DNA from: Macrocystis pyrifera
Taxonomy: Eukaryota; Sar; Phaeophyceae; Laminariales; Laminariaceae
DNA length: 64,000 nt
Assembly (NCBI GenBank): GCA_031763025.1
Contig: JASSKH010000007.1
Location: 14,222,080-14,286,079 of the forward strand
Direction: 5' to 3'
Positions within the stretch are counted from its first letter, which is position 1, and each line of letters opens with the position of its first letter. This document shows positions 8,076 through 38,367 of the stretch, piece after piece. The translations under genes and the position numbers were made by a program. The notes under the pieces were generated by a model. That model was not told the DNA's origin. It did not search any database and saw only the letters and a program-made list of their open reading frames with translations.

Positions 8076-11000
8076 CTACGTCGTGGTCGGCGCCACCGCT
8101 GCCTTCGTCGCGGCGAGCAAGTGGAACAGCATGACCCCCCCCGTGACGCTAACGTTAAGCGAGTCCACCGTAGATGCCGCCGCGCCCTCCGCTTCGGCGC
8201 CCCCACCCGCCCCCGTCACCTCGACCAGAAACTCGCACTCTCTCAGAACGTTGGTGCGCACGCCGTAGCCCTCGTTCCCCAGCACCACGATGGTTGGAGG
8301 CGCGTCCGGGCCCGCGGGCAGGTCGTGCAGAGGGGCCGACCTCTCGGTTACCGCGGTGCCCACCACGCGCCAGCCGTTCTCCCGGCTCCGCTTGAGGAAG
8401 CGCATCATGTTCGCCGTCGAGTGGATCCGCATCACCTCCACCGCGCCGGCGCTCGACTTGCTCACCGTGGCCGTCAGAGACGCCGAGTTCTTGGCGCAGG
8501 CTACGACCCCACTCGCGCCGAAAAAGTGGGCCGACCGCAGCAACGCGCCGAAGTTTTGCGGGTCCGTGACCTCGTCTAGGGCTAGCCAGACCTGCCCGTT
8601 AGCTGCGCCCAGAGGCGCGGCCGGTGCTCGCGCGACCTTCGCGGCCTCCTCTTTGTCACCGCTTTCTTGGTCGTCGCCGTCATCCGTTGCCTCTGCCGTG
8701 GAGGGGGCTGATTCGACGTCGGCGTTGGTCACCTTGGAGGGGGGGGTGGATTTGCCCTCGACACGCGGCAGGAAGAGGATCGGCTCGAAGTCTAGCGGGC
8801 GCGCCTTCAGGATGAAGCCCTGGTGGGGGCGATTCCCGCAGAGCGTGTTTAGGTGCCCTTATCCGTAGTGGTCATCCTGCGCGAGGCATATAGCAGCGTG
8901 CAGCCGGAGAGTAAAAATACAAATATAATGAAAGAAGGAACCAAAAAGTGAGCATTGCGTTGTTTTCGTTTTCGGGTTTGGACTAGAGAGGTTGGCGTCA
9001 TCGGTTTGTCAAAGGCATGCACGCAGTCGGAGCACCACAACCGCATCCCTCCTCTATAGGAGGTGACGCCTCATCACTCGCATTTTTATTTGCAAGTTGG
9101 CAGCCAAGGATTGGATGGAAGTGAACCCCAGGCGCATAGGATACAATACACCAACCCTCGCTTTTCCATTGCTATCACTGCTCATGCAGAGGTGGGGGGC
9201 ATTGTGGGACATACACAGTGCCTGGGACACTGCTGCTGGGTTCGGTGGAATCGTCGTTCCTGCAGGCGGCGGAGTAGGGTTTATCCTCGTAGCGCATGGC
9301 ACAGGGAGACGTTTCCCTCGATAACTAGAAAACCCCAGCTCGTGCTCCTGTCGCCCATCGCAGCCTTGACGAGCGTCTTCCACGGTAAGCTAGCAGGTAG
9401 CGGTATCAGCCCACACAAATGTACGAGCAATTTACGATCAGCCGCATACCAAAAAGAAGAAATCAAGTCAATAAAACGCATCGCGCAAAAACGACGGGCA
9501 ATTCACGATCAACCGTGTACCAAAAAGAAGAAATCAAGTCAATAAAACGCATCGCGCGAAAGCGACACGCTTCACGGTAAGAACGCCTCACATGACGTCG
9601 GACTCCCTCGCGAGGTCGTAGATGGTGTTGGCAGCGGCGCGGTCTTTCTTATTTGCCGGCACAACTCCATCTTGGCAGTACAGCCCGAGCTTCTCGCGTC
9701 TGTCGTTGCGTAGCGCGTTGAGCACGGGGGCAATGCCGTACACCATGTCGAAGTTCGTGTCCTCGTCTATGTTGTGGCCCGGAGCGAGCTCCGACTGGTA
9801 GTTGGCTGAGGGTGAGAAGAGCGGCGGAATAGGGGACGCTTGGGGATGAGAAAAAAGGATAACCAAAACCACAACGAGGGGTGTTACCGTGCGATTCTAT
9901 ACGGCCGCAGTATCAATAGTGATTACCGCGTTACCGCGTATTGGCTCATCTATATACAGGCTTTTCATGCCGACAGACAATACATACTGCCGTAAAATAC
10001 AATAACACCTACTACGCAGGCCTGCTTCATTTTTTTTCGCATCTTTGGAAGAATCTCGGGAAAGTTCCTTCTTACTTTACAGTAGTCTCGAGTGCGACTG
10101 GAGGCTGGGTAGAACTCAGCCTGCTATGGTGGTGCTACGACATGATGCGCGTATGTGCCTACTCGCATGCTGAACCCAACTTATGTATTTGGTGAGCTCG
10201 TGGGCTACTGTACACTTATTGGCTCATCTATATACAGGCTTTTCATACCGACAAGACAATACATACTGCTGCAAAATACAATAACACCTACTGGTACTTG
10301 GTACGCAGCTCTGCTTTATTTTTTTTCGCATCTTTGGAAGAATCTCGGGAAAGTTCCTTCTTACTTTACAGTAGTCTCGAGTGCGACTGGAGGTTGGGTA
10401 GAACTCAGCCTGCCATGGTGGTGCTACGACATGATACGCGTATGTGCCTACTCGCATGCTGAACCCAACTTAAGTATTTGCTGAGCTCGTGGGCTGCTGT
10501 ACACTTACTACTTGTTAATCCAAACTCGCTGCCCCGATGATACTTACCCCCCCCCGACGAACCGCTATCTTCAGTCCATGGAGTCAGTTCAAGGCGTTGA
10601 CATTTCAACAGGAAGCATGGATGTTCAGGGTTACCCGAGACTATTTTCCCACTTTCGAACAACCCGTGGCACTATCTTCTGGCTTTTCAAATCAAGATAG
10701 AATGAATTCATCGAGCTGTTGGAGGTTGCTGAGGTGTGCAAGGCGTGGCTTTAGAGAGCAACGCGCTGCTAAAAATCAGTTTAGGATGGCGTGGTTGCAA
10801 ACAAACCTAGAGGCAGTGGTGCAGCAGGGAACGCAGAGGACCGCTTTGGTGCTTCGGCTCCAACGAGCAACGGATGCTCGGCAGCACCACCACAAGGTCT
10901 TCGTCCGATCATGCAATCAGGGCGAAAAGCGGCACCGAGTTGTGGGCTGCCGTTTTAATAGCTCGATCTACGATGCTCGGAACGTTTGGCGTCGAAGGTT

Positions 11001-16302: not shown

Positions 16303-19300
16303 ATGACTGACTACTGCCGCCGCACCGCTGATAGGGAGCGAAGCACACCCGGGTCGTCCTATGGCCGAAGGTCTAACCTCAACCGCCGTGTTTCTCTCAC
16401 CTCGACCTTGGCGGCCGGAAGTTATGTTCTTCTTCTCTTGGCAGTATTGTCTCGGGAGGTGTCTGCCGCCTCGGGGAGGAGGACCTACGCGAAAGACTCA
16501 AACCGCAACTCGGACCGACGCAAGAAGCCATCGGTTAGCACCGTGAGGAACTTCTACATCACCACCGAACTCGTGAGTTTTGCTGTTATTAATATCTTGG
16601 TGCCGTGTCCAGTTAGTTGCTTACCGTGTCTGTGTCTCCGAAGAAAGAGCAAAGGTGTGTACATTGTGTATTGTATGTGGTGAGAGACTGAAACGGTGTC
16701 TATCTGCAAATAAATGAGAAACCAATAGCACATACAAAGTTCTAACAGTATCCCGTAGACTTCAACATTAATTATTATTGCTCTGTAAAAGATGCTGTAC
16801 CCAGTGAACCAGGGACCATGTATTAGGTATTAATACACTATTCGTTTCGGCTTACTGTACTGCAGCAGTATACATACATCATAGTCATTGTCCATTGACG
16901 GCAGGGTATATATAGTACAGAGTCCGCGACAGCCGTCATCGCTGACTTGGGAGTCGATAAGTTTTGGCTGGACTTTTGCACGAAACACAAGAACACCTTT
17001 TTCGCACTGAAATTAGTTAGGAAACACTCTCGCCTAAAAACTATTACGGGGGACCACATAGTAAGTAGGACCAAGTCTTGGTAGAAAAAATGGGTATATA
17101 TATAGATTTTTGTGTGTACCTTAGGTCCTATTAACCATAGACCACCGTAATAGTAGTCTTGGTGTCGCGTACTCTGCGTACTTGTACAAGTGAAGTGAAT
17201 AGTTATACATGAAGTTGGCAAAGCGAACGTGGGGTGGTATGTTCAGATTACACGTGCCCTCGCGGACGAAACTGTCCCCTCAATTTCTTCCACACCATAC
17301 AGGTATTGATAGTACTGTTGTTGTAGTGCGTTGGTACAAAGTACGCTACCGTCGTTGTACTTGGCGTAGAGCATTATCTGCTGCCTCTAGACCCCTAGAC
17401 CCTACTACGAGCCCTACCATACTGCTGTAGAGCTCTCTCTGTCTGTGTGTTCAGATCTATTTTCTTCAGAACACCAACAACGCGCCCTTCTTCGTTCTTC
17501 GCATTGTAGCCAAAAGATACCAAGCCGTGGAGGTTTCAGTGTAATCGCATGTGTGAGTGGAGCAGTGGCCGGGGATCCTGTGTGATGTCCCCTAGCCACC
17601 TGGCTCGTGGTCCGATGAGGATCACTCCGTGATAATACAAGCTCTAAGAACAAGACTTACTGAGTGCGAGGCCAGCGAGACTGGTGGAGTCCCTCGCTGG
17701 AAGCCCTCTTGCTGATATCATCTGGCAGAGGCCAGAATATCTAGATATTCGCGGAACTTCTGTTGGAGGAGTTTTCGGCTGCGGAGTATTGGGTCACAGC
17801 TGGGAAGGCAGTTGGCCCGTTGGACGGATCGAAACGGCTTGAAGCGCACAGCAGGGGAGGACGCTCCGGGAGCTGGAGGACGCACAGGTCAGGCGGCAGT
17901 TTCTCCGTTATTACAGTAGAGTCCAGGTGGACTGCTGTGGATTATGGCGCACACGGCAAGCACGCCGCTGGTGGTAGGGGAGTCTCTGACTCCACCGAAA
18001 TACGGAGAGGTGTGGACCGAGCAGGCCTCTCGTGTTTTTTACGCAGCGTACCTCGATTATGAGGAACGGCTGCAGCTCGCCAACGCTCAGGGGGTGGTTC
18101 AGCACTCCAAAGTGAGCATGGGCCAGCTTATCCCCAATTACATTCATCGGTGTTTTGAGGGATTTTACAAGCATCAGACTACGATGACCGCCTCGGAGTT
18201 GTTGGACGCTGTTAGGCAGCACGCTGGTTACACAACCACCAGCAACAGATTTGACACCTCGCGGGCGGCAGCGGACTTGCGTCGCGTTCTCTCAATGAGG
18301 CGCGATGAAAAGCAGGGCGGTGAAACATCCGTCAAAGACCGCGCGATGATGGTAAACTCCGCTATGGAAAAGTATTTTGCGGAGAATCACGCGGTGCATG
18401 CCATGTACCGCGCGCAGGACCGTTCGTGGTTGCCCGGACCGGCGGAATTTGTGAGCATGGCGTTGGTGGATGGCTTATGGCCGTCCGAGTTCAAAAAGTA
18501 CGTAAAAGGTCAGCTAACGTACGCTGCAGGGTGGAAGAAGGACCCGGCATTGGTCATGGACCAAATTTTTTCTGCTGCAGAACAGTGGAAATTCATCGAG
18601 GCGTATGGTCGGAAAGATGCTGCAGGGGCAGCTGAACCGCGACGCCAACAGCAGCAGAAACCGAAACAGCAGCAGTCCGCGAAAAAGTCGTTTGTTCGCG
18701 TCTGTTTCGAGTGTGGTGATCCCAACCATTATGTTTCTGATTGCCCAAAAGCTCGCGGTGGCGGCACAGCTCCCAGCAGTGGTGGGCGCGGGTCGTCAGG
18801 GTATCGCGGGGGCCGCAATGGCGGCCGGGGCAGATTCAACCATGGACGCGGGCGCGGTGGCCGTGGTGGCAATCAATTGACAGCGGGCGGTGGAACTTCT
18901 GCTGTTGCTTCTTCAACTTCTGGTGCGCCAGCGGCAGGAGCCGCTGGGTCGGGATCTGGTTCGTCTGTTGCCGGCCGAGCTGTATACGTTGGAGGAGCTG
19001 GAACATCGGTGGGTGCTGCTGGAGCGAGAACTTCGCCATCCACCGAGCGGGCGGAGTCAGTGTCTGGTGCTGCTGCAGGGGCGGTAGCGCCGGAACCGTC
19101 TGTATATTCGACGTCTTGGTCGGGGTGGACCGCCGATTCTATTTCTTCGGCGCCGGCTGTAGGAGGGCAGCCATGGCGTCAGGTGACTCTTGGTACCGAC
19201 CAGAGTTCAACGGCAGGTGAAGTGCCTGTCGATCGCAGCGCTGAGTGTTTACGCGCTGATCTCTCTTTGCCAGGGTCGGTTGGTTCGCTGATGGCGCGTG

Positions 19301-22300
19301 TGATCCTTGATTCGGGGTCGGCGCTCACGTCCATCGGTGTCGGCTTACTTCAGCAGCTGTCTTCGCATTTCGGCGGCGCCGATCTGCAAATTCCGTTCGA
19401 AAATGGCCCGCAGCAGGCGAAAACCGCTACGGGTGTTTCAGTGATGGTCACGCACAAAACGGTGCCGATTGCCGTGAGTGTACGGACGCCGTGGGGAGCG
19501 GTGAAATTGGAGCCCATCACTTTCGCGGTCATGCCTGGTACAGATAACGTCGTTCTGTTTGGCATGGCTACCATGAAAGCTCTTGGCATCGACGTCTACC
19601 GTGAAGCTCTGGAGAAGCTTCGCCCTCGCGCAGTGCCGGTATCGACCGGTGTGGAGACTCCGAGTTACCTTGCGGCGCGCAGAGTGACGGTTTCCGTGCG
19701 TGCTTTTCAGACCGAGGCTACGGTGGATGCTCCGGAGGACAAGGCGGTGGAACATTTGGTCGACCGGGGGCCAGACATGTTCATGGATCCGGAGGAGGAG
19801 CGGACGGCCCGAGAACGGGCGTTGGAGGACAGCGTGCAGCAGGCAGAGCAGAGTGGATTAAGCGTCGGCGGAGCAACCCGTTTGCGCGAAATTTTGGCTC
19901 GTCGCGTGGGTGCTTTTCGCCGTGCGCTGTGTGGTGATCCGCCAGCGCAAGTGGAGCCGATGCGAGTGCAGCTGAAGCAACAGGCGAAGCCTGTCAAGGC
20001 AACGCCACGTCGGTACGAACCGACGAAAAGGGACTGGCTCTCGAAGTGCATTGCTGCTTTGGTGTTTTTTGGCTTTGTCTACCACAACATCCAGGCGGTG
20101 TGGGCGAGTCCGGCGATGGCGGTGCCCAAGAAGGACTCTTTCCGTTTGGTGAGCGACTACTCGGCGGTGAACGCACAGGTGGAGAAGTCCCCGGGCGTCA
20201 TGCCCAACCATGAAGACATGGGAGATCTGCTGGGGGCGCGTTTCTTCGGCAAGCTGGACCTACTTCAAGGGTACTGGCAGATGCCTTTGGCTCCGGAGGC
20301 GCAAGACGTCTTCACCATGGCGACAAGCGACGGTTTGTTCACGCCTACCCGTGTTCCCCAAGGTGTTTTGAATGCGACTTCTTATTTCCAAGGTGTCATG
20401 ACTGAAGTGTTGCGTGGTTTGGATTGCAAAGTTTGGGTCGATGACGTTTTCTTTTTCGCAGACACCGAAGAAGCTCTTCTGCAGCTGCTTGATGACATTC
20501 TTGAACGCCTGGAGAATGTTGGACTGTTTGTCGCCGCCCACAAGTGTACCTTCTTCTCTCGTGAACTGGTCTGGTGTGGTAAGGTGTATTCCAATGGTGT
20601 CGTGTCCCATGACCCCGCTCGAGTGCAAGGTTTAAGTGAAATGCGTCGTCCCGAAAACGCTGGAGAACTAATGCAATTCTTGCAGGCTGTCAACTGGTTG
20701 CGTACATCGTTACCACGTTTAGCGGAAACGGTAGCACCGTTACGTGATTTTTTGGAGGAGCTCCTTGTTGGGGCTACACGTCGGACTAAGCGAGTGGCGC
20801 GCAATCGTGTCATCAAGGATACCGCGTGGACGGAGGATCGGGTGCGGGCGTGGAATGCCGCACGGGGTTTGGTGGCGCAAGCAGTGCCGCTTCATCATCC
20901 TCGTCCCGGGTGCGTTGTTTTTGATGTTTCCTGACGCTTCTGATTTCCATTGGGGTAGTTTTCTCACCCAAGTGCCTGAACACGAATTTCGCAGTGGATT
21001 GGCGTTGGAAAGCATGTCTCACGAGCCTCTCGGATTTCTGAGTGGTTCGTTCACAGGTTCGCAGTTGCGCTGGGCGACTGTCGACAAAGAAGGTTTTGCG
21101 ATCGTTAATACGTTCCGGAGGCTCGAATACCTGCTTTGGGGTGGTGTTCATATCTTTACTGATCATCGAAACTTGCAGTACATTTTCAATCCGGAGAAGT
21201 GTGTCACGACGGTCACAAAGACCATGGCACAACGCCTAGAGAATTGGAAGGGTGTTTTAGGACAATACCGCTATGCAATCGAACACATCCCTGGCGATCG
21301 AAACTGTTGGGGGGATCTGTTGTCTCGTTGGGTCAAAGTTCCTACGGTGCCTGTTCGTTCGGTTGCCGTGCACAGCCCATGTAATGCTGACGATTCGCTT
21401 CCCGCATTGGATGTGATTCGTGCCTCGCAACAAAGGTCTGTCGCTCGTATCGGCGTTGGTGTTCATGAATTTTCGACAACCTTCGGTCAAGCTACCTTGG
21501 CCGATGATGGTTTGTTTCGTGTGCGTGTTGGGGTGCGTGACGTCTTGTGGATTCCGCCGGATGATCTTGCTCTTCAAACTCGTTTGATGGTGTGCGCGCA
21601 CATGCGCTCGGCTGGTCACCGTGGTGTGGCGCCGACTTTGTTTCGCCTGAAGGAATATTGTGTTTGGCCTCACATGGATTCTCAGGTTCGCGAATTCGTT
21701 CGCCAGTGTTTGCACTGTGTAGACACGCGTGCAGGTGCACTCATTCCTCGTCCCTACGGAGACACGGTGCATGGTACCGCTCCGGGAGAAGTGGTGCACT
21801 TTGATTTTTTGTATGTTGGCCACAGCGGGCCCGAAGGTAGCGATGGCCTGCCTGATGAGGATGGTTTCCGATATGTTTTGGTCATCATGGATGATTTGTC
21901 CAACTACGTGGCGTTGGAACCGGCCGAGGCTTGTACAGCCGAGGTCACAGCGAAGCATTTGCTAGCCTGGTGTAAGACTTTGGGGGTGCCGCGTGTGTGG
22001 GTGAGTGATACCGCCACGCATTTCAAGAACAGGGTGCTTGCTTTGTTGAGCGACGCGTTGCACATCGAACATCGTTTTGCTGTCGCTTACACGCCGTGGT
22101 CGAACGGTACGTGTGAACGCATGGTAAAAGAGGTGGTACGTGCTCTGCGTTCCATTCTGTCAGAACAGCGTCGTCAGGTTTCGGAGTGGGTTGATGTTTT
22201 GCCGGCCGCTCAGTGGGCCTTGAACACTTCGTTTCGTGAACGTTACCGAAGCACTCCGTACAGCGTGATGTTTGGGCGTGCTCCGCGTACCGATTTCTCG

Positions 22301-25300
22301 GCGCTCGTTTCTGAGTCTGATGGCAGGTGGAATGTTGACGTGATGAATGCTGACTTGTTGCGTGCGAACGTCCGTGAAGTCGTTGCAGAGCAGGAGAGAT
22401 TTTGCGCCGATATTCGCGCAGCTGTTGCCGTGTCTCGCGACAACAAACGTAAACAGGCTCAGGGCCAGGTGGTGTTGCCAAAATTTGCGGTTGGTGATTT
22501 CGTGTTGTATGCTCGTGTTCGTCGGCAGGGTGTCACACCGAAATTGTTGTCCACATGGACTGGTCCGTGGCGTGTGGTAGCAGCTGATCATGATCATGTG
22601 TACTCAGTTCAGAACATCGTTTCTGGGAAGGTGCATCAAGCTCACGTGGCTCGTTTACGATTTTATGCGGATGCGACGTTGAACGTCACCGCTGATCTGA
22701 AGGATGTTTTCCAACATTCCTTTGCGCAGGGTGAATGCCGCATGAATGCTTTGGTGCATGTGGCCGAAGATGATGCCAACGAGGTGATTGTCTTGGTCGA
22801 TTGGGATGGTTTCGAAGCAGAGGAGCGCACGTGGGAGTCTTTGCGGTCGATTTATTCTGCTGCGCCTGAATTCGTCGTGAAGGAATTGCGCAAATTACGG
22901 ATGACCCGTGCGCTCAAGATTAAAATTGCTTCAGAGTTCAGCATTGATTTGTGATTTGCCGCATGCGATTTCGTCTTGGTTTTTTGGTTTTGTCAAGCTC
23001 GTTCGTGTCGAGTGAACTCGCTTTGGGGGTGCTGTAGCCAAAAGATACCAAGCCGTGGAGGTTTCAGTGTAATCGCATGTGTGAGTGGAGCAGTGGCCGG
23101 GGATCCTGTGTGATGTCCCCTAGCCACCTGGCTCGTGGTCCGATGAGGATCACTCCGTGATAATACAAGCTCTAAGAACAAGACTTACTGAGTGCGAGGC
23201 CAGCGAGACTGGTGGAGTCCCTCGCTGGAAGCCCTCTTGCTGATATCATCTGGCAGAGGCCATAGCATACAATATATACACGCACACGATCGTCGTGATT
23301 TGTTGCAGGTTGAATGGGACTACGCGCCGACGGGTGAGGACCTTATCGATGGCGTCCCTCTGGAGGACAACGAGGATGCCGTCGTCTTCATCGAGGACAC
23401 TCCGTCGCTCATAGGACAGAAATACATGAAGGTGAGCAATGACGATACTATTTATACTACTACACACAGTTACTGCTGTCTGTAGACTACAGTACATAAT
23501 ACGTATCAATATTGATATATACCTAATTTATATATGTATAGTTTCAAACTATGCCACGATCACTTTTAAATTACGAGTCCTGCTGTACTGAATCACGAAT
23601 ATCGTACGATTATATGTTTTGGGATCTCCATATCTCAATTAAACGCCCCGGTCATATTTTTATGCCTGGTATCCAGACATAATGCTGTATTGTATTTTCA
23701 TTCTTATCAATGGCGAATTTGACCACAGCAGTACTCCAAATAGTATCTCTCTAGGATGAGGAATCAGGGCGGGCACTGGGTGTACTGATGTACTAAATAC
23801 TACAACAGAAATTGCCGTCTATATAATGTGAACACGAGACACACCTGTCACGTACATCTCGAGAGTGTGGGTTTATAGGTGTGTTTACTTCACATTAAAC
23901 CGTTTTTTCTACCCGTCGACATCCAGCTCAACCTGTCCGTGCTGAATCTTCAATCCTAGAGAGTTACAAATTTCGTGGTCACTAAGCTACGCACACAGAG
24001 ATACCTGTACTACATTGCATTGCTATGCGCAGTAAGCAGAGTAGACAACGCAATGTGCCATATCATCATGCTGGATACGACATACACGAGATACACATTC
24101 TATGAAAGAGAGATAACAAAGAAATGGAGGCAAACAAACAAACAAAAAAAATAACCCCGAAAAAACAGAAAACAAAGAAACAATCAAACAGAACAAGGAG
24201 AAGGAGAAATAAAAGAAAACTCGGTCGTGCCTCCCCTCAGCAGATAGATGATGTGGCAGAGACTTACTTAATCCTTTTAGTTACGCGGATGTAGAACCAC
24301 CTGTCGCATTTTGTTGTTGTTGTTGTTGTTCTCACACTACCTAACTACAGCAGTAATGCCCTAAAGATTGAGTCCGTAATTATTATGGCATACGCCTATA
24401 AATGTGAGTTTTCACGCTGCTGGGTAAGCATAATATATAATTACCCTGGGCTGGGTAATTTGATCGATCTTTTACCCCTATAGCTCAGTATAGGTAACAT
24501 CTTCACGCTGGCACAATAATCAACCATGGTGTGATCTAGACAAGATGGTCCAACCATATTCTGGTAGTGAATCCAGCTACTGCGAACTGAACTGCTGACC
24601 TCAAGATGGTCCAACCATATTCTGGTAGTGAATCCAGCTACTGCGAACTGAACTGCTGTGCTTTTCGGCTCTGGAAACTATTCTGCACCTCTCCCATCAA
24701 TTTTCGGAGGACCCCATGCCACCATTTTTGCTTTTATTGTTATCACATCATATTTCCGACTTCCCGAACGGGGCATAAATTCGCCCGCCAACGATTAGAC
24801 ATTCTCCGAGTGTATTGTATAAAATAGATGCCTCCACTCGCTCGAAGGCCGACACGCCAACAAGTCGGAGCAATTCGTATTGCAAAAAAAAAATGACAAA
24901 CGAGTAACATCGACATATATACGAGTACGTCACGCGAGTGCCCCCCACCTATATGCCGCTAAAATGCTGCAGCTTGCTGTTGATGATGCTGGCCGTATGT
25001 ACTATATACAGAGGACCAATAATTTTGTGAGTGTGCCTACTTGTGCAGAACGCTGTTAAGATCAGGGTCGGGGCACTTTGTACCCCTGGACAGGTTTGCC
25101 TATCAATTCACTCACGTGTGTTGTTGCTTCGGGATAGAAGAAGAGCAGCTTTTAATTTATTAGTTTCGTGCACGCGCAGACTAAGAGCCGAGCTCGAGCC
25201 TCGCTGGGAAAACCCCTGGTTTTCCATCTACGATACGCCTCCCAAGTACTACAAATACGATCCTCATACTCGAACCCAGGTAATTACCGGGCTTTCAGCC

Positions 25301-28300: not shown

Positions 28301-31300
28301 CTGTCTACTCAACTGTGCCTCACCCTCGTGCCACCTCACCATGAACCGTTCGGCTGCTTCAAGGACCCCCCCGTGCCACTTCCCCGCCTTTTAGGCTGCA
28401 GTGCACCACGGCACGGTCTCAACTCCAAACACCAAGGGGGAGTGTTCCGTTGATCTTTCGGTGGCTCGAAACTCCCTAAGGCCTTTGATTATGCATTTAT
28501 GCTAAGTCTTAAACTGTCCGCCAGGTCTCGGGTTCTCCCCGCCAGCCATCGTCTCGAACATTACCCGACTGAGTAATCGCTCCTTGCTTTGCCTTCGCGT
28601 ACGAGAGGGTGGCGTGGTCAGTGCAAAGTCGGCGCTGGAAGCCAATGACTCGCAAGAGGACTTGGTGGTGAGCCGTTCGAAGCTTGGCAAAGTGTTCCGC
28701 TCTGAGGGTCCACGTCACACACCCGTACAGCAGCGTCTCAATCACCTCGGCCTTCAGCATTTGGACTTTCAGGCCAAGCGGGGCGGTCGTCCTATCATAC
28801 AACTCCGGGCCGAACCGTTTGAGGCACGCCCGCATGAAACAGATCCGTCGGTCGATTTCAAGCGAGAGGTCACCGTTTTCGTCTGTAATGCCGCCCAGGT
28901 ATAAGAACTGGGCTGTCTGCTTATACTTCTGGCCTGCTGCTTCAATGACGAGCGGTGGGGCGACGGTTGTCTGGTCTGGTGTTCGCAGAAGCATTGTCTC
29001 CGTCTTCTTTCAGATACCGTGAGACCTGCTGCTTCGAAGACAGTCACGATGACTGTCATCATTTTCGCGCGCCTTTCAGCCGACTTTGAGACAATTCCTG
29101 CGTCATCGGCGAACAACATGCCCCGTACAGCCCTTCGCACGCATGCCAACGGCTCCTGTTCCTCAGTTCCGACTACTCCAACATCATTGAGTTGAGCCAA
29201 ATCCCTGACGATGGTTTCTTCTTTGCTGAAGCGTACCAGTACGAAAGCAGCAACGAAGAACACGTTGAACAGTAACGGTGATAGCACGCAGCCTTGTCGC
29301 AGCCCCCCCAGTGACTTCAAACCATTAAGAGTGCTCGCCGTTTCCGTACGCACACGAGCCCGTATGCCGTCGTGGAAATTGCGGATAATTGTAAGCAGCT
29401 TGATTGGTACGCCAGAGCGTTTGAGTACTTTCCACAGCAGGCAGCTCTCGGTCGACAGAGTCGTACGCTTTCTGCAGATCGATAAATCACAAGTACAGGG
29501 GGATTTCCCTCTGTCGTCCGAGCTCTTGCAACCAGCGCACGACGCACGAACAACATACCGATCGTTGATCGTGCGGGGCGGAAGCCGCACTGTCCCTCTG
29601 GGAGTAATTCCTCGGACTCGCAGTAGTCGCTAAGGCGGCAAGCCACGATTTGCAACAACACTTTGCCAGCGTGGGCAACAAGCGAGTTCCCTTTGTAGTT
29701 GTTGCAGTCAGTTCGGTCCTTCGTTTTGTGAAGGACCTTGATGATCGCATCTTTCCATTGCTGGGGGACTTCTCCTGGTACCCAAACATTGACAAGGATG
29801 TTGTGAAAACACTGGGCGTAGCTTTGTGACCACATAACTTGTATCTCTCTCCATTAATATGATTGAAGAATCAGCACGGACACTACCGGTTGTTGTGCTG
29901 GATGCCGACGGGTAGAAAGTACGGTTTAATGTGGAGAACACACACAGCTATTTACTCGATGGTCAGCTCTTCTACTGATCCATCAATATTTTCCGTAATT
30001 ATGCTGCTGTCTTTTGTCCGCTGGAACTCGTGTGCGACGTGACGACTTAAACTCTACTCGTATGATACTCTGCCGTCACTCAAACGTTTGCTCCCCCCAC
30101 CACCCACCTACTGCCTACACTAGTAGCACTTCGTATATAATATATTAGCAGCAGTAGTAAGAGAGACGTCGTATGCCTTCACCATGTCATATTGATGGTT
30201 TACTAGGAGCATTCGAATGACTGAATGATCGGATGTTAGAATGATGAATGATTGAATGATTGCATCTATGTTGAATGATTGGATGTGATTGAACTATTAA
30301 GTGCTCGATTGAGTGCATGGATGAGTGAACGGTTGAATGATAGGATAGCATGATCACATAATATAACAATTTAACAGAGTATCGAATTATTGATTGATTG
30401 AAAGATGGAATGATTGAATGATAGCAGTATTGAATTATCGATGATTGAATCGTTGGATTGGTGAATGTTGATTGAATACTTGATCAAATGATTGAATGAG
30501 TGGATTATAGGATTATTGCATAATTGAACGATCCAACGGAGTATTGAATGATGGAAATGATGGAACTGTTGAATTATTTTTTTATTGAATAGTCGAATGA
30601 TTGCCCGATTGAACGATCGAATGACTACTAGATGATTGAATTGTTGAATGGTTGAATGAATGACTGAATGGATGATATTAGAAGATGATACTTGTCAGCA
30701 GCCATAATAGTCGTTACTCGATAACATCAGTAACACTTAAGCCATCTGATATACATTTACGCATTTCTAAGTACAACAGATAGTTCTGTGGGTTATAGTT
30801 TGTTTAATACAGCAGTATACAGCAGCACCAGTCTTACACTATCTGCTGCTGTGCACTCGTACACATTGCAGAATAATTTTCAATAAACAAGTAGTATCGT
30901 GGATTTACTGCATCACGCACGTACATTTTCTACAGCAGCACATGCACAGTAGTACGTGCGCACTGGTAAATAATGGAAAGGTATCTTTAATATCCCTCCG
31001 AGACCAGTAGCATAGTTGTAGTTCTGGGTGAAGAAACAACATAGATAGGCTACACGAGGGTCGTGAGTACGTACCCCAAGAGACATTGATTTTTACAGTA
31101 GAACTGTGGGTCTCCGTGTTGTTTGGTATTGAACTGAATACAAGGGTACATCCCTATTTTTGTTTGTGTTTGAAATAAGTGTAAGGGTCGTCCTTTGTTG
31201 CGAGCTGCGAGCGCACGCGCCCCCCCCCCCTTTAAGCTCACTCCACTTTTGCTCACCATCAGCTTCCAGCTGAGCAAATCAATTTACACATCGGCCTGGG

Positions 31301-34300
31301 GTCGATATCATTTTCTTTCTTCTTCTTCTCTTCTATTGAAGCTTCTCATACAAGTCACCTGACAGTGACCCTGCGTTTCCCTCGAACATCGACTGTGTAT
31401 CGATCAGCCATCGGCAATCGAGTCGAGACGTAGACACCAGCTACGAGCTGGTACACACGCCAATCGCCATACCTAATAGGTTATGAGCCTCGTGAATGTG
31501 AAAGGATGAATGGATAGGATGGATGGATGGATGGATGGATGGATGGATGGATGGATGGATGGATGGATGGATGTATGTATGTATGTATGGATGAATGAAC
31601 GACTGAATGAATGCTTATATGTTTCAATGATTGAATACTGGTCATGGCGTGGTGAGGGCGGAGTTGAAAGAGTTTAGCGCGTGCAAGGTCTTGCGCCCGG
31701 CACAGCTGCAGTACTTTATCGTGAAAAAGACCCGTGGACCGTCCATATTGACGTAGATTACGTACCAGGTAGGTTCGGTACCGGCATGTTCGTCGTACGC
31801 TTTTCTCTTTTTTTCAAATTTTGTTCACACTATGAATAACTCAAGCCGTTGACGTTTTGCAGTAGTTTGCTCATACCCTATCTATATGTCCTTTTATATA
31901 TGTATCGAATTGTTATGGGATGCCTCTGGTCTTAAATGCAGGCATACGCTACTTGCTGGTGTAGTGTCAGCATATATATTGTTCCAAAGTATTGTTACGT
32001 TAGTAACTACTTTTGGACACTCATACAGCCCATACAGTATAGTAACCTAGACACATTTCAAGTGGCAGAACACCCAAGCAATTCTCGCGGAAATAACGCG
32101 AAAAACATTCTTCCCAGTTGTATCAAGTATGTACACGTACTACGGCTCCTGTCGAGTTTCCTGAAGTGTCCGACGCACACCGTCCGCGATACGCACACAA
32201 AGGTAGATGATATCTACAAATATCCTGGTGCCCGAGTTCCTAGCGAAAGCTAACCTATCGTTGTCCCTTGCCCTCGCCCTAGCTGTTAATAGTACTTCGT
32301 ATGTGCACCGCGGGCAATTGTTGTAATTTCGTTCTGCTCCCTGCTGTACTCCTGCTGCACAGTCCCTGTACAAAGAGTACACGGATGACACGTACACGAC
32401 GGAGAAGGAAGCGCCGGAGTGGGCGGGGAACCTCGGGCCCATCATACGGGCCGAGGTTGGCGACACAATCATGGTCCACTTCAAGAACATGCTCCCGGAG
32501 TGAGTTTTCTACGATCAATACATGACATCAATGTATGACATCAGTGCATGACACCACCATATGGGCGAGACAGATACGTGCTACGATAGGGACATCACAT
32601 ATGTTTCCTATTGATAGGGGTACAACGAAGTATGCGGACTGAACGCGATATCTGTAGGTTGCATATACTACTACAATTATTTCGCACCCACTATCACCCC
32701 CACCCCCACAGACCCCCCGCCCTTTTTTTCTCTGACCCCGGCAGCCTCCCTGCTTCCATGCACCCCCATGGAGTGCTCTACACCCCCGAGAACGACGGGG
32801 CCTTCTGGAGGCTCAACACATTCCCAGGGTCGTCTGTTGCTCCCGGCGACAGCTTTGTTTACGAGTGGACTGCGCGAGAGGCCTCTGGCCCAACCGGGGA
32901 CGACAACAGCAATCTCTGGTGGGAAAGATGATGCTGCGATGATTGTCATCGCGAGACAAGTAGTTGTGAATTTGGGTCGTATAGGGAGGGCCAGGAGAGA
33001 ACGGCATCGTTTTGTAGCGGCCGGTGCAGAGTGTATACAGTGTCTACAGTGCGCGAGTTCGGTTGTTACACTTGTGCTCCGGGATAGGCCGGCCGTTACC
33101 TGAAGATTTCGCTTGCTCTCTCTCAGGGCGCCTGTGTTTTGTCGTCGGGTCAGTCGCTCGAGATCGATCGTTTTTTTGTCGTTATGGATGTGGGAGTCGA
33201 CCAACCTCTCCTCCCTGCGGTGCCACATATATGTTGTTATCATACCTGGTGTGCTTCATAGGTTTTACCACGGACATGTAGATTCGGTCCGAGACATTTA
33301 CGCGGGGCAAATGGGACCGCTCATCATCTACAAAAAAGGGGTTCTCAATAGCCGTGGGCTTCCCAAGGCAAGTATATCGTTCCACGCAGCACCACTAAAA
33401 CTACAGTACGTCATATATGTGATGCTGTTGAAGTATTTTTCTGCGTCGATACGATACCCCTCTGAAGGGAGCTCGCGCCTTTTTCTATTCCCGCTTATGG
33501 ACTCATCTGAAGTCTTGAAACTGGTTCTCACGGTCCCGGTACGAGTACCGCTACCGCCATGGTGGCAATTCGAGACCGTGATGTCGAAACTTCGCACAAT
33601 TTTTAAAGTGAGCGATGGAGCCTAACAAATGACTTGCAGCGCGTTTGCCGAATATCCCCTTTCCTTCAATCGCCGCAGAGACCTCTCTGCCCGAAGTGGG
33701 TACGGTGACAGTTCACATTCCTTCAAGACGCATGGACCGGTTTAGTGTAGGCTCGTAGGGTCGCCATTTTTTTACGGAAGGCAGGGGGTGAGCCACGTAC
33801 CAGGGAAGTTAGTATATGGGATAAAAAGAGACAAGACACGTGCTACGATACCGGTATTAATAGAACTTTTCCGTCCTATTGCTTCTGACTGATGGGAAAT
33901 AACTCTTCAAATGGGGTTAAGTACTACTACAGGTCTGTTACAATTACCCAATATCGTCGGAACACCGTTTGCTTTCTTTCAGAAGTATTGGCAACAAACC
34001 TCGCAAGTCAATAAGCCATCGGGCTGTCGCAAGATGTTTACCTGAAGTCAATTCTTTAGGTAAGGTACGGGGATGCTCGAGCGAGGAGCCCCGTAAACAC
34101 TGTTAACAGGTGCACCAGCACCGCAGCATGCATCACACTACACCACCGTATTGAGGGTCCTGCAGGTCTAGGTATAGCTAGACAGAGCTCCACCACTACA
34201 CCTTCTTGGTTGACGCCGATTCCGCTACCCCCGCTGTCGACTAAAGGGCGGTGTAGCATCTCATAACATGGACAGCAGATCGAACTCGATATGTGATACC

Positions 34301-37300
34301 CACCACAGACAAGCAGTGAGCGTCATGCTGTAAGCCGTCCACTTTCGTTGCGTTTTCTGTACAATAGTCCCACTCCTCTGCCACCTTTCGGCCCTTAGCC
34401 ATCACCCTCGACTGTTGTTGTACCTATACAATGTACGTATGCGGGGGCGAATTGGCAGCGACCACCTCGACTGTTCTTGTATCCATACACTCTACCCATG
34501 CGTGGACAAAGTTGACCTTGCCCCACCTCGTGCGTTTTCGCAGGACGTCGACGAGGAGTTTGTGATCTTGTTCATAGTGTCTGACGAGAACCAGTCCCAC
34601 TACTTGCAGACCAACATCGACATTTTTGGCGGCGACCCCGATGACCCGGTGAGCTGACCGCCGACGCGCATACAACCGTCGCAAACAAGTATGTCAGCCA
34701 TCGCACGCCAAACACGTCACACATTTTAGCTTAACGGTCGGCGCTATGCCTCACCGTTGGCAGCCACCGCCGGTTTATCGAACTTTGTTGGTTGTCAGAA
34801 ATATGTTGGGAGGGGTCGCCTCTCGGCGAATGGAGATGACCAGGTGTTGCTTGGTGGCCGCCGGTTGTCGCTGTAAAGAAGCCGCCGGAGACAGTTGGCT
34901 GACGTTTCGGGCGAATGACCAGCTGTTGTCAATAGCGGTCGATACAACATATCATGCCTATGGTAGACTTTTGCTTTCTTGGAGTTAGTTCTGTAAGTTT
35001 CCTGTAGCTATTGTGAGACTTATTAATAGCTACCTGGTACAGTAGTTGCCTAGTCGCAGACTCTCAGCAGCAGGCAATCGCAACGGGCAAGAGCAGCAGA
35101 GCCAGACGCACACTGCCTCCCGTCTCGCTGTACTGTGTCTCGGTGTGGCATCTAGCACGGCCCACGCTGACCGACAGTTGTGCCTGGCTTGGTTGCTAAT
35201 CAGAAAATGCCCGTGTCGGCGGCATGCGGCCGTATCCAAGCAACAACATTTGTGAAGGAAAGAAGGGCGGAAGCTCTGCGATGCAAGAACTATCAACGAA
35301 CACTTCATCGTCGCTGACGTCATGCTCGGTTTTGATGCGACGAATAAGAGACAGATTGCTGCCGCCTGGTTTGTCTGTGGATCATTGTCGCGCGTGAATA
35401 TCGAAATCAACAAACAAGAAAGGACACATACACATTTTCCGCATTGCAGGTTCTCGACGAGTCTCGCCTGATGCACTCGATGAACGAGTTCAACAAGTCA
35501 AAACAGACACATCTTAATCAATTGTCGTCCTCGTTGCATGCGTTGCAGGATTTTGAAGAGTCTAACCTGATGCACTCGATGAACGGCTTCGTGTACGGTA
35601 ATCTGCCCGGCTTGAAGATGAAGGAAGGAGACACCGTGCGCTGGCACGTTGCAGCATACGGCACGGAGGTGACCTACACCGTTCCTATTAATCGACCTTT
35701 GGTTGTCGTACTGTGGCGTACGTATATACGCGGCGACAGTCTTGTCACCCGCTCGCTTGTACTACATTTTGTTCACCTGTTTTGCTGTTGAGGGAGACAG
35801 GCTAATCGCACCTCTGTGTCGGCGTAGATTGCTCGATTTGGCGTCGTTGACCACTTTGACCGAAACAGGGAAGCCTGACAGACGAGACGCGGCAATCAGC
35901 CAACTTTTGCGCGATAGTCAATGGTCTTACAGATGGTGCCTTGACGATGAAGAACGCGGTTATCTCACCCACTGCATTAGTTCAGAAGTTGAAATTTACG
36001 CTGTGCTCCGCCTCGAAAGGGATTCGTGGTCAATGATGGTCAATCGACTAAGGCAAGAAACACATGAGTGCACCATTCACTCCGCCCCTCTTCCAAAGCG
36101 CATGCAAGGGTCGAGACCCTCACCACCCCCATCCCCCCTAAACCAAGTATATAACAACGCTCACAAAGGAACTTGCATTTGAAACCTGCGACACCCCGGA
36201 AATATATCACCTCAACCCTCCACATCAAGCCCCCCCCCTGTATTTTGATGGTTTGATGAGTTCCTCGGGTCTCACGGCATTTCCCCCACGTTTATACCGT
36301 ATCAGGTGGATCTTCACACCGCACACTGGCACGGAAACAACGTCAAGTTCGAGGATAAGAATGTGGACACGCTCGAGCTGTTGCCCTCGACCTTCCTGAC
36401 GGCAATCATGACCCCAGACTCCGTCGGCAGTTGGCTGTGAGCCTTGTACATGTATCGGGCGAACGCTTGTAATTCTCGACGCAGTAGTAGCAGCGGCCAT
36501 ATGTCTCGTTGGAGCCTTTGGGATGAGTCGACAACATAGCGATTCCATCTTGAATTGACACCAGCCTGTAACTAGTCTAGGCCACTAGGTTTCGCTGAAA
36601 AAGGCTACCATGATCGTATTTGCAGGGGTAAAGGTACACCTAATATTTTCTGAGGCTCCTCACTTGGGCTCTATACGAACTCCCACTCAAAAACTGACCT
36701 TATTGAAAAAGTGATTTGCGTATCCGGTGAACAATGTCCATGGCCTAGGAACACATTGAAAAATAGCGTAGAACGCAAACGGTACCCCAGTGACATTCGG
36801 TAAATGCTCAGTTGAGGAGTATACTAATAATAGCCAGACACAAATATTTCGGCCTCAGAGTGCGACCCCTATAGCATATGGCACGCGTCCGTACAGTGCG
36901 GAATCATTGTAACCTGCCTGGCATTACCGACCCTTCCCGTTGCTGTCCGCGTTTGTTCCGCGGCTCGTGCGATTGACAACTTTTTCTGACTGCCCGCTTC
37001 AACCGCTGGCGCTGGTGCTGGCACCATAACTACGCCTTCCGACTACCGTCACGCGGCCTCGCCTGACAGGTTCCATTGGTAAGTTTCTGTTTCAACTGGA
37101 GCCAAATTATCCTGGCTCGTGACGTGCTGCTGTCTTTCGAGCATTTTGCCAGAAATTATAGCATGATGACGCGTGCTTCGATAGGCTTCGTAACATTTTC
37201 CCCCGAGATTGTTATGACTTAAGGCACTACTCGTATAATAAGGGCCATTATCATTTGGAGAGCTTTGTTTTTCGCGCATTATTTGTCTTTCCTGATTTAC

Positions 37301-38071: not shown

Positions 38072-38147
<76 letters not shown>

Positions 38148-38367
38148 ACTACGGCCATGCATAACAATGAGCACCCCCCCTCGCCCCTGCCCACCCTGTT
38201 GCTCTTCACGCCTGCTTTTCTGTCCCCCCTTCGTTGGCCTCCGATGGCGATGTTGATGCTGCTACTGCTGCCTGTTTTTGGTCTCCATTTATTGCAGCCA
38301 TGTCAATGACCACATCCTGGCTGGAATGCAGGCATTCTACACTGTTTCGCCCAAGAAAGGCGAATAA
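16303..38367 (+). CDS. Two-domain multicopper oxidase, ceruloplasmin/hephaestin-like
   Basis: Predicted copper oxidase coupling substrate oxidation (possibly Fe2+) to O2 reduction, secreted or membrane-anchored. Exons: 16303-16572, 23309-23431, 32363-32499, 32745-32918, 33262-33367, 34544-34648, 35549-35668, 36306-36436, 37070-37078, 38298-38367. Total 1245 nt, 414 aa plus stop, all junctions in phase. Residues 36-49 are a hydrophobic signal or anchor. Domain 1 has HPH (183, 185) and HGH (238, 240); domain 2 has H349-x2-H352-x-H354, then H391-C392-H393, H397 and M402. Spacing equals ceruloplasmin domains 1 and 6, giving a full trinuclear site plus one type-1 site. Intron 5 is GC-AG; others are GT-AG. 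Intron 1 holds a young Ty3/gypsy element, intron 2 a LINE and two TRIMs. Substrate specificity is inferred only. The region just before the ATG looks like an acceptor, so the N-terminus may extend upstream. Confidence 0.9.
17041..17153. mobile_element. MITE-like inverted-repeat element, copy 2
   Basis: Starts CTATTACGGGGGACCA and ends in the inverted GACCACCGTAATAG; ~113 bp, in oxidase intron 1, just left of the Ty3/gypsy element. Confidence 0.75.
17505..17734 (+). repeat. 5' LTR of the Ty3/gypsy element
   Basis: 230 bp, TG...CA ends, identical by eye to the 3' LTR. The last bases form a small hairpin, CTGGC-AGAG-GCCAG, the final G being the first base past the LTR. Confidence 0.95.
17735..17750 (+). 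promoter_or_regulatory. Perfect 16-bp palindrome at primer-site position
   Basis: GAATATCTAGATATTC starts at the first base after the 5' LTR, where a tRNA primer-binding site normally sits. It does not begin with TGG and so does not fit a tRNA 3' end. It may take part in an unusual priming mode or be coincidental. Confidence 0.5.
17944..20934 (+). CDS. Retrotransposon Gag-protease-reverse transcriptase
   Basis: 996-codon frame encoding the first half of the polyprotein. Gag-like region first; a CCHC zinc knuckle ([14 protein letters not shown], residues 254-267) for RNA binding; a Gly-rich linker; a retropepsin-type protease with LDSGS (DSG 456-458); reverse transcriptase with LDLLQGYWQ (Asp 772) and the catalytic WVDDVFF (Asp 833 and 834; the usual Tyr of YxDD is Trp-Val here). 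It ends in the RNase H lead-in, and the RNase H core continues one frame over in the next CDS (191-nt overlap). Start chosen as the first ATG of the frame, 210 bp after the 5' LTR. Confidence 0.9.
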   Translation: MAHTASTPLVVGESLTPPKYGEVWTEQASRVFYAAYLDYEERLQLANAQGVVQHSKVSMGQLIPNYIHRCFEGFYKHQTTMTASELLDAVRQHAGYTTTSNRFDTSRAAADLRRVLSMRRDEKQGGETSVKDRAMMVNSAMEKYFAENHAVHAMYRAQDRSWLPGPAEFVSMALVDGLWPSEFKKYVKGQLTYAAGWKKDPALVMDQIFSAAEQWKFIEAYGRKDAAGAAEPRRQQQQKPKQQQSAKKSFVRVCFECGDPNHYVSDCPKARGGGTAPSSGGRGSSGYRGGRNGGRGRFNHGRGRGGRGGNQLTAGGGTSAVASSTSGAPAAGAAGSGSGSSVAGRAVYVGGAGTSVGAAGARTSPSTERAESVSGAAAGAVAPEPSVYSTSWSGWTADSISSAPAVGGQPWRQVTLGTDQSSTAGEVPVDRSAECLRADLSLPGSVGSLMARVILDSGSALTSIGVGLLQQLSSHFGGADLQIPFENGPQQAKTATGVSVMVTHKTVPIAVSVRTPWGAVKLEPITFAVMPGTDNVVLFGMATMKALGIDVYREALEKLRPRAVPVSTGVETPSYLAARRVTVSVRAFQTEATVDAPEDKAVEHLVDRGPDMFMDPEEERTARERALEDSVQQAEQSGLSVGGATRLREILARRVGAFRRALCGDPPAQVEPMRVQLKQQAKPVKATPRRYEPTKRDWLSKCIAALVFFGFVYHNIQAVWASPAMAVPKKDSFRLVSDYSAVNAQVEKSPGVMPNHEDMGDLLGARFFGKLDLLQGYWQMPLAPEAQDVFTMATSDGLFTPTRVPQGVLNATSYFQGVMTEVLRGLDCKVWVDDVFFFADTEEALLQLLDDILERLENVGLFVAAHKCTFFSRELVWCGKVYSNGVVSHDPARVQGLSEMRRPENAGELMQFLQAVNWLRTSLPRLAETVAPLRDFLEELLVGATRRTKRVARNRVIKDTAWTEDRVRAWNAARGLVAQAVPLHHPRPGCVVFDVS
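20744..22954 (+). CDS. Retrotransposon RNase H-integrase-chromodomain
   Basis: 736-codon frame, +1 relative to the preceding frame. True homology begins near residue 63 ([10 protein letters not shown], RNase H Asp 64), so the first ~60 residues are probably not translated. Next come the RNase [10 protein letters not shown] motif and integrase with an HHCC zinc site (H286, H292, C322, C325) and catalytic D354, D422, E458, with exactly 35 residues between the second Asp and Glu. The C-terminus carries [16 protein letters not shown], a chromodomain-like motif (about residues 682-715) that in chromoviruses directs integration to marked chromatin. Stop at 22952-22954, 78 bp before the 3' LTR. Confidence 0.9.
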   Translation: MIFWRSSLLGLHVGLSEWRAIVSSRIPRGRRIGCGRGMPHGVWWRKQCRFIILVPGALFLMFPDASDFHWGSFLTQVPEHEFRSGLALESMSHEPLGFLSGSFTGSQLRWATVDKEGFAIVNTFRRLEYLLWGGVHIFTDHRNLQYIFNPEKCVTTVTKTMAQRLENWKGVLGQYRYAIEHIPGDRNCWGDLLSRWVKVPTVPVRSVAVHSPCNADDSLPALDVIRASQQRSVARIGVGVHEFSTTFGQATLADDGLFRVRVGVRDVLWIPPDDLALQTRLMVCAHMRSAGHRGVAPTLFRLKEYCVWPHMDSQVREFVRQCLHCVDTRAGALIPRPYGDTVHGTAPGEVVHFDFLYVGHSGPEGSDGLPDEDGFRYVLVIMDDLSNYVALEPAEACTAEVTAKHLLAWCKTLGVPRVWVSDTATHFKNRVLALLSDALHIEHRFAVAYTPWSNGTCERMVKEVVRALRSILSEQRRQVSEWVDVLPAAQWALNTSFRERYRSTPYSVMFGRAPRTDFSALVSESDGRWNVDVMNADLLRANVREVVAEQERFCADIRAAVAVSRDNKRKQAQGQVVLPKFAVGDFVLYARVRRQGVTPKLLSTWTGPWRVVAADHDHVYSVQNIVSGKVHQAHVARLRFYADATLNVTADLKDVFQHSFAQGECRMNALVHVAEDDANEVIVLVDWDGFEAEERTWESLRSIYSAAPEFVVKELRKLRMTRALKIKIASEFSIDL
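20912..20934 (+). other. Frame junction inside RNase H
   Basis: Frame 1 ends in TGA at 20932-20934, while the RNase H core is in frame 2. The overlap includes a run of five T (20918-20922). One surplus T, or a +1 translational shift, reconnects GCVV to FPDASD. Confidence 0.75.
23033..23262 (+). repeat. 3' LTR of the Ty3/gypsy element
   Basis: 230 bp, identical to the 5' LTR as far as I can read. It is preceded by a short purine-rich patch (GGGGGTGC) at the position of the polypurine tract. Confidence 0.95.
23880..23993 (+). repeat. Interspersed ~110-bp repeat, copy 1
   Basis: Shares CACATTAAACCGTT, CTACCCGTCGACATCCAGC and GTCCGTGCTGA with segments at 26740-26820 (inverted), 29862-29945 (inverted) and 44450-44505. 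The 29862 copy abuts the LINE remnant, and the similarity here runs on into that junction (GTGGTCACTAAGCTACGC), so it may be a LINE 5' end. Confidence 0.6.
23994..24429. other. Oxidase intron 2, AT-rich
   Basis: No feature apart from an A-rich block at 24110-24220 and a (GTT)n microsatellite at 24313-24330. Confidence 0.5.
24430..24525 (+). repeat. SINE-like element, copy 3 (5' part)
   Basis: Leader ATTACCCTGGGCTGGGTAA and A-box-like ATAGCTCAGTATAGGTAAC, as at 14637 and 14903; no B box recognised. Confidence 0.5.
24541..24658. repeat. Perfect 57-bp direct repeat
   Basis: 24541-24597 and 24602-24658 are identical (both begin CAAGATGGTCCAACCA and end GAACTGAACTGCTG), separated by ACCT. A recent local duplication. 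Confidence 0.95.
25054..25740 (-). mobile_element. TRIM (miniature LTR retrotransposon), complete, with TSD
   Basis: Two LTRs (25054-25323, 270 bp; 25462-25740, 279 bp) with inverted ends TGTTA...TAACA enclose only 138 bp with no coding capacity. Target duplication ACGC on both sides (25050-25053 and 25741-25744; five bases AACGC if the shared A is counted). Read on the minus strand, the primer site TGGCGTCGTCGGCAGGATT begins 2 bases after the LTR (plus 25441-25459). Its complement reads as a tRNA 3' end: AAT of the T loop, CCTGC T-stem, CGACGAC acceptor strand, G, CCA. It must be mobilised in trans. Confidence 0.85.
25745..26570. other. Oxidase intron 2, no feature assigned
   Basis: Short open frames only. 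A small inverted repeat at 26469-26497 (GAGCGAGCGTAGCGG / CCGCTCGCGACGC) is the sole structure noted. Confidence 0.4.
26640..26735. repeat. GC-rich inverted repeat
   Basis: Centred near 26696 on GGCGGCGTAGGCCGCC, flanked by CGAGCTTAGCGGG / CTGCGGAGCGAAGCG and more distant arms CGCATAATTTG / GCATAACTTG. It could form a stable stem. Confidence 0.5.
26740..26820 (-). repeat. Interspersed ~110-bp repeat, copy 2
   Basis: Inverted copy of the repeat at 23880 (GGATGTCGACCTGTAGAAAG, CGGTTCAATCTGAAG). Confidence 0.6.
26860..27762 (+). mobile_element. TRIM element, longer copy
   Basis: Same family as 25054-25740, opposite orientation, 1.1 kb away. Left LTR 26860-27171 contains a ~35-bp T-rich insert; internal region 27172-27485 (314 bp); right LTR 27486-27762. 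Primer site TGGCGTCTTCGGCAG starts at 27174, two bases after the LTR. The internal region is longer than in the first copy, so that copy is a deletion derivative. Target duplication is not clear. With the first copy it gives the intron a long inverted repeat. Confidence 0.8.
27763..28499. other. Oxidase intron 2, C-rich stretch
   Basis: Short open frames without domains. CCCTGTCTACCGTCTCCGTCCT at about 27861 and a close variant near 28139 mark a small diverged duplication. Confidence 0.4.
28505..29840 (-). pseudogene. Decayed LINE reverse transcriptase
   Basis: Remains of a non-LTR retrotransposon ORF2, antisense in oxidase intron 2. In order on the minus strand: [20 protein letters not shown] (RT entry motif), [22 protein letters not shown], the catalytic FADDAG (about 29090-29110), [16 protein letters not shown] and finally [10 protein letters not shown]. 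These sit in at least three frames, so it carries several frameshifts and cannot encode an active enzyme. The endonuclease half is absent. A short repeat shared elsewhere (29862-29945) abuts its 5' side. Related to the LINE tail at 53700-54110. Confidence 0.9.
29862..29945 (-). repeat. Interspersed ~110-bp repeat, copy 3
   Basis: Inverted copy of the 23880 repeat, immediately upstream of the LINE remnant on that element's strand. Confidence 0.6.
30190..30685. repeat. Degenerate GATTGAAT-type low-complexity array
   Basis: About 500 bp dominated by variants of TGAATGATTGAA with a period near 8 bp, heavily diverged. Confidence 0.8.
30686..31500. other. Oxidase intron 2, no feature assigned
   Basis: AT-rich DNA with many ACAGCAGTA/TACTGCTGT phrases; one C tract at 31220-31230. 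No exon or element supported. Confidence 0.4.
31513..31600. repeat. (GGAT)n microsatellite
   Basis: About 16 copies of GGAT from 31518, grading into GTAT and then GAAT/GACT variants. Confidence 0.95.
33368..34543 (+). other. Oxidase intron 5 with GC donor
   Basis: Donor AAG|GCAAGT instead of GT, acceptor TTTTCGCAG. The flanking exons join in phase 0 and keep the family alignment, and AAG|GCAAGT is the known consensus of GC-AG introns. Confidence 0.8.
35450..35548 (+). other. Duplicated exon start upstream of oxidase exon 7
   Basis: A 99-bp in-frame unit beginning GCATTGCAG|GTTCTCGAC repeats the start of the real exon 7 (GCGTTGCAG|GATTTTGAA). Both encode the phrase ES(R/N)LMHSMN(E/G)F. The frame is open across the unit, so the upstream acceptor would add 33 residues. 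The downstream acceptor gives the sequence that fits the family. Confidence 0.75.
37070..37078 (+). CDS. 9-nt microexon of the multicopper oxidase
   Basis: GTTCCATTG, preceded by CCTGACAG and followed by GTAAGT. With TGGCT upstream (exon 8 end) and CCATGTC downstream (exon 10 start) it yields W-L-F-H-C-H-V. It supplies one type-3 His and the type-1 Cys ligand. Skipping it keeps frame (411 aa) but removes both ligands. Confidence 0.85.
38074..38165 (+). repeat. 73-nt poly-C tract plus family signature
   Basis: Uninterrupted C from 38074 to 38146, then GACTACGGCCATGCATAA, the signature of the poly-C-bordered repeat family, then a second C tract (38175-38181). Lies in oxidase intron 9, 132 bp before the last exon. 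Confidence 0.9.

Follow-up and report, generated by a model that had tools for sequence, protein, structure and literature searches.

A nine-nucleotide segment at positions 37070-37078 of the DNA analysed here is almost certainly a genuine coding exon of a gene for a ceruloplasmin-like two-domain multicopper oxidase, as judged from genomic sequence. The window, a stretch of 64,000 nt from Macrocystis pyrifera with a G+C content of 50.7%, sits within a 16.46-Mb contig of a 537-Mb genome. The microexon, GTTCCATTG, codes for the third base of Leu389, for Phe390 and His391 and for the first two bases of Cys392. Its splicing-in would complete the HCH...H...M copper signature of the enzyme; in its absence, Phe390, His391 and Cys392 would be missing, and the type 1 copper with them. 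By homology, we take Cys392, His397, Met402 and His349 to be the ligands of the type 1 copper, and His391 and His393 are presumably ligands of the trinuclear site. Cys392 is one of two cysteines in the model protein, the other being Cys5.

We rebuilt the gene model from tblastn matches with the proteins of brown-algal relatives, together with splice sites and phases. The gene has 10 exons and runs from 16303 to 38367 on the plus strand, coding for 414 residues with the microexon and 411 without it. Exon 1 (16303..16572), located by tblastn with P0001 and P0002, begins at a putative start codon, codes for a hydrophobic N-terminus and is followed by a phase 0 donor, gtgagt. Exon 2 (23309..23431), which ends with ...QKYMK, was located by tblastn with P0002 (85% identity). 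Exons 3 to 8 were placed by tblastn and the gene model. They comprise exon 3 (32363..32499), exon 4 (32745..32918), with the HPHG copper motif at residues 183-186, exon 5 (33262..33367), with the YHGHV motif at residues 237-241, exon 6 (34544..34648), exon 7 (35549..35668) and exon 8 (36306..36436), which carries the HTAHWHG motif at residues 349-355 and ends with TTGGCT in phase 2 before the donor gtgagc. Exon 9 is the microexon, for which the evidence comes from a segment scan, shuffled sequences and two paralogues. Exon 10 (38298..38367), located by tblastn with P0004 and P0086, starts with CCATGTC after ttgcag and codes for the last base of Cys392 onward. The introns are of the GT-AG type, with the sole exception of intron 5, a GC-AG intron that begins at 33368 (AAG/gcaagt). 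Part of the beginning of exon 7 is present twice, positions 35441-35486 matching 35540-35585; use of the upstream acceptor would add 33 residues in frame (35450-35548). A motif search found a single copy of the duplicated stretch at each of the two paralogue loci described below.

The microexon is flanked by canonical splice sites, tgacag before it and gtaagt after it, and it lies between two phase-2 introns of 633 and 1219 nt. Its phases fit those of exons 8 and 10, and the product of their direct joining would read ...GSWLHVNDH... and lack HCH. The original prediction had placed the end of exon 8 at 36436, the microexon at 37070-37078 and the start of exon 10 at 38298. These positions and the phases were all reproduced, and the proposed lengths of 414 and 411 residues agree with our independent 10-exon model, which gives 414 with the microexon and hence 411 without it. 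It had further been claimed that exactly one segment repairs the motif, and this held: among 1269 segments of 1-150 nt bounded by AG and by GT or GC in the interval between exons 8 and 10, 37070-37078 is the only one that brings back HCH with the frame kept open. Similarly, a scan of both strands of the whole window for W-x-x-HCHV gave a single match, at the microexon. The segment thus has three features of a small internal coding microexon, a length of ≤15 nt, canonical splice sites and conservation, here among three paralogues of one genome. A run of about 70 C is found at 38074-38146, in the intron that separates the microexon from exon 10.

Multicopper oxidases are defined by four His-rich copper motifs. 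All four are present in the model protein, with HPHG starting at residue 183, YHGHV at 237, HTAHWHG at 349 and the HCH motif spanning residues 391-402; the fourth is present only with the microexon. Both Pfam domains found score above their cut-offs, Cu-oxidase_3 with 60.2 bits and Cu-oxidase_2 with 47.0 bits. Without the microexon the Cu-oxidase_2 score falls to 23.7 bits, which is still above the cut-off of 20.4. A sequence search of the PDB returned ceruloplasmin first (5n0k, E 7.9e-197, three of its repeats being matched). The last of these has the same HCHVxDHIxAGM, and the Cys-x4-His-x4-Met spacing that had been likened to that of ceruloplasmin is indeed the same by sequence comparison. 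An AlphaFold2 model of the relative P0004, computed with 39 relatives, has a mean pLDDT of 80.7 and places HCH (residues 367-369) at the end of a strand. The 50 fold matches listed for this model begin with ceruloplasmin, followed by coagulation factors V and VIII and a related venom protein, and then by two-domain laccases. By its sequence and the predicted fold of P0004, the window protein is a single two-domain unit of the ceruloplasmin type, and it would be expected to bind copper and to have oxidase activity. Two-domain multicopper oxidases of the ceruloplasmin type are known as homotrimers, with the trinuclear site between subunits.

Could the nine nucleotides match by coincidence, the gene having lost HCH or supplying it in another way? 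We used dinucleotide shuffles of the 1861-nt interval between exons 8 and 10 as the null, and defined an exact fit as a 9-nt segment coding for L[FYLVM]HC. Inserts of any kind of ≤60 nt that restore HCH are common, as they occurred in 778 of 4000 shuffled intervals; hence, the strength of the evidence rests on the exact fit. The latter was found in 178 of 30,000 shuffled intervals, and in none of the 30,000 when splice scores no worse than those observed were required on both sides. In a separate shuffle run, an exact fit with W-x-x-HCHV occurred in 18 of 4000. The persistence of weak intron similarity between the gene copies speaks for coincidence as well, but a 17-mer identical in both paralogues, never obtained in 8000 shuffles of either paralogue interval, speaks against it. 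Altogether, a chance match is hardly conceivable.

We also asked whether another choice of donor or acceptor supplies HCH. The model set comprised 821 open models, with 11 possible exon 8 donors (36406-36469) and either no inserted exon or one of 3-150 nt; the only AG in the tested exon 10 stretch, 38240-38319, is the one for 38298. When scored with a homologue profile, which was built from 225 HCH-bearing proteins and hence favours HCH, the microexon model was the best of the 821, with 487.8 bits compared with 464.5 bits without an insert. Second came this exon spliced at a shifted donor (478.2 bits), and the best other insert reached 476.0 bits. As the microexon model outscores all other open models, we rejected this possibility. 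Splice-site strength was assessed with a matrix trained on the remaining eight donors and eight acceptors of the gene. Against these same eight training sites, the microexon acceptor scores 3.8, below all the others (7.3-15.0), and its donor 5.1, also below all the others (5.6-10.5); its inclusion might hence be inefficient. Within the interval, the donor nevertheless ranks second among 101 GT sites and the acceptor eighth among 76 AG sites.

At E ≤ 0.01, a search of the genome gave at least 26 exon matches, and those listed lie on a single contig and correspond to the window gene and two more copies. The latter form a tandem pair on the minus strand, at a distance of about 0.85 Mb (G000:C221:13364772-13391805). 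Both harbour the same ag, GTTCCATTG and gtaagt in succession, with the microexons at G000:C221:13365531-13365523 and 13384601-13384593 on the minus strand. The coding strand of each paralogue stretch (5.5 and 10 kb) contains one match to the microexon pattern, between exon 8 and the exon coding for HVNDHI, and the predicted spliced products of both paralogues across the microexon give the same 21-residue stretch. Thus, three gene copies of one genome share the nine bases, the preceding ag and the following gtaagt without a difference. Shuffling the paralogue intervals gave an exact fit in 100 of 8000 and 37 of 8000 cases, respectively, but never the identical 17-mer in the 8000 shuffles of either interval. 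By exon 8 peptide, the Undaria protein P0002 is closest to the tandem copy L108 (two differences in 44).

The introns around this block differ between the copies. Those preceding the microexon are 633, 2049 and 669 nt long and those following it 1219, 687 and 785 nt. In 12 comparisons between copies, the 120-nt intron flanks show 57-73% identity in gapped alignments, compared with 83-88% for exon 8. Those identities, close to the 54-73% of shuffled sequences, suggested that the flanks had decayed to the shuffled level, but the alignment scores contradict this: in seven of the 12 comparisons the score exceeded those of all 60 shuffles, in one it was reached by one shuffle of 60, and in four it was like that of shuffled sequence. 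Part of the conservation of the block could therefore reflect slow decay. This residual similarity does not alter the odds, because an exact match in all three copies is independent of intron decay. An unchanged 17-base block amid diverged introns appears to be best explained by selection on an exon that is used, and we infer that transcripts include it.

We then considered homologues. The set comprised 230 proteins, i.e. the best 120 of 5349 matches and 110 new ones among the 120 listed of 379 in a C-terminal search. HCH is present in 225 of them, always as HCHxxxHxxxxM, and is preceded by WLF in 136, as it is in the window protein. The five without it are P0001, P0002, P0003, P0006 and P0010 (which has HCE); four of these are truncated or partial brown-algal models. 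Among the matches listed, the closest proteins are brown-algal, P0001 with 89% identity and P0002 with 86%, both labelled Undpi1, which we read as Undaria pinnatifida. Further brown-algal relatives are P0003 of Pylaiella littoralis and P0006 of Laminaria digitata, both partial and uninformative at the microexon site. P0004, a eukaryotic model (g12045.t1) with 67% identity, has an intact WQFHCHINDHI. No further named brown-algal protein was found among the 120 matches listed of 379 in the C-terminal search or the 120 listed of 746 in a search with the N-terminal half; beyond P0001-P0004 and P0006 the best listed identities are 68% and 56%, respectively, and many of the listed proteins are nameless. 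The 52 stretches that a scan matched in viral contigs include no relative, and the best 80 of 128 relatives in a scan of prokaryote genomes all carry bacterial or archaeal titles.

The gene models of relatives gave a divided answer on the copper site, as HCH is intact in P0004 whereas both P0001 and P0002 end with ...TWL before reaching it. In all three Macrocystis copies exon 8 is followed by gtgag, and read-through into intron 8 yields CTG TGA, a leucine and a stop. Both Undaria models therefore end where a predictor blind to the microexon would stop. One explanation is that they represent real transcripts in which intron 8 is retained, as it would often be, so that splicing would be regulated by retention and the protein would end before the type 1 site. 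The shared Leu-stop in the three copies and the common end of the two Undaria models are in keeping with this, but the models would also end there if the predictor could not handle a 9-nt exon, and P0001 is imperfect elsewhere, as it also lacks part of exon 2. Moreover, missed microexons in plants are described as giving models truncated by early stops, or models that skip a few residues, in the sections of PMC8831610 drawn on here. We thus consider frequent retention unlikely. Most simply, the ...TWL ends would be gene-model errors, the microexon probably having been missed in both Undaria models.

The claim of a 9-nt coding exon at the copper site stands, this exon contributing Phe390, His391 and the first two bases of Cys392; the accompanying proposal of an in-frame on/off switch found no support. 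According to that proposal, the microexon is a regulated cassette whose inclusion gives an active oxidase of 414 residues and whose skipping gives a copper-poor protein of 411. With a length divisible by three and a phase-2 intron on either side, it could indeed be skipped without loss of frame, and its splice scores are lower than those of the other sites of the gene. However, skipping of a 9-nt exon keeps the frame automatically. No skipped form was found among the fetched proteins; of the five brown-algal-like ones only P0004 spans the site, and it has HCH. In addition, intron retention at microexons is reported to be commoner than skipping in plants, in the portion of PMC8831610 considered here. 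If an alternative form has left a footprint in the annotation, it is the ...TWL form, of the intron 8 retention type, rather than the 411-residue one. Identity of the exon, ag and gtaagt in three copies and the occurrence of HCH in 225 of 230 homologues favour obligatory inclusion and argue that the exon is needed for function. A skipped-or-included cassette is hence very improbable, and an obligatory exon fits the sequence data better. It is unlikely that splicing at the microexon, whether by skipping or by retention of intron 8, is regulated so as to tune the amount of copper-competent oxidase in the three copies, e.g. according to copper or iron supply. Inclusion of the microexon is likely to be constitutive.

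Other elements were detected in the window. Intron 1 harbours a Ty3/gypsy-type retroelement (17505-23262) whose two LTRs of 230 nt (17505-17734 and 23033-23262) share 100% identity; matches to reverse transcriptase, RNase H and integrase are found in overlapping frames between them. Such identical LTRs point to a recent insertion; the inspected flanks show no clear target-site duplication. Intron 2 (8.9 kb) contains related repeats of about 150-210 nt between 25156 and 27762, in both orientations and 87-93% alike. A reverse-transcriptase fragment is present on the minus strand at 28772-29629 (RVT_1, 30.6 bits), and an overlapping minus-strand frame, 29317-29853, appears by eye to be more of it; together, 28772-29853 looks like a decayed non-LTR element. 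On the minus strand, the open frame 8079-8858 codes for a SpoU rRNA methylase domain (95.8 bits). Scans of the window for tRNAs and Rfam families gave no matches.

In one brown alga, catalytic residues are thus predicted to be coded by a 9-nt exon that is identical in three gene copies whose introns have changed, which parallels the invertases of land plants. As both Undaria models stop before the copper site, they would pass for dead or truncated oxidases, and active-site motifs that microexons split may escape surveys of brown-algal gene families that build on models of this kind. Searches guided by the motif, like the present one, can recover them.

The window protein differs from ceruloplasmin in having one repeat where ceruloplasmin has three. 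It resembles the prokaryotic multicopper oxidases labelled 'hephaestin' or 'manganese oxidase' in having two domains; identity with the named ones among the matches listed is about 50-53%, and with the best 80 of 128 prokaryotic loci it is 37-51%. Those prokaryotic genes code for HCH in one uninterrupted frame, whereas the window gene has it split by introns. The two-domain laccases of Streptomyces are among the fold matches of P0004, but structural alignment with them gives an identity of only 19-20%.

Exons of nine nucleotides at active sites are already known from plant glycoside hydrolases of family GH32; a brown-algal multicopper oxidase would be a further case, and our search of open-licence papers found no report of such a microexon in brown algae or in multicopper oxidases. 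In plant acid invertases and fructan exohydrolases, a 9-nt mini-exon codes for the D-P-N of the beta-fructosidase motif and is unannotated in rice and maize, according to the part of PMC8831610 used here. One of the three active-site residues is on this mini-exon, whose loss results in a putative non-functional allele of chicory 1-FEH IIb, in the excerpts of PMC4477480 consulted. The kelp microexon and that mini-exon share their length of nine nucleotides and their place within a catalytic motif. For the invertase exon, phase 1 is given in the same part of PMC8831610, whereas the oxidase microexon lies between phase-2 introns and belongs to a different enzyme family and lineage. The GH32 mini-exon is backed by transcript and allele evidence, the oxidase microexon by genomic sequence. 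The AP2 transcription factors of land plants also have a microexon of nine nucleotides, nearly always unannotated in rice and maize, as described in PMC8831610 within the same limits; it codes for the core of a DNA-binding domain, whereas that of the oxidase contributes to a predicted metal site.
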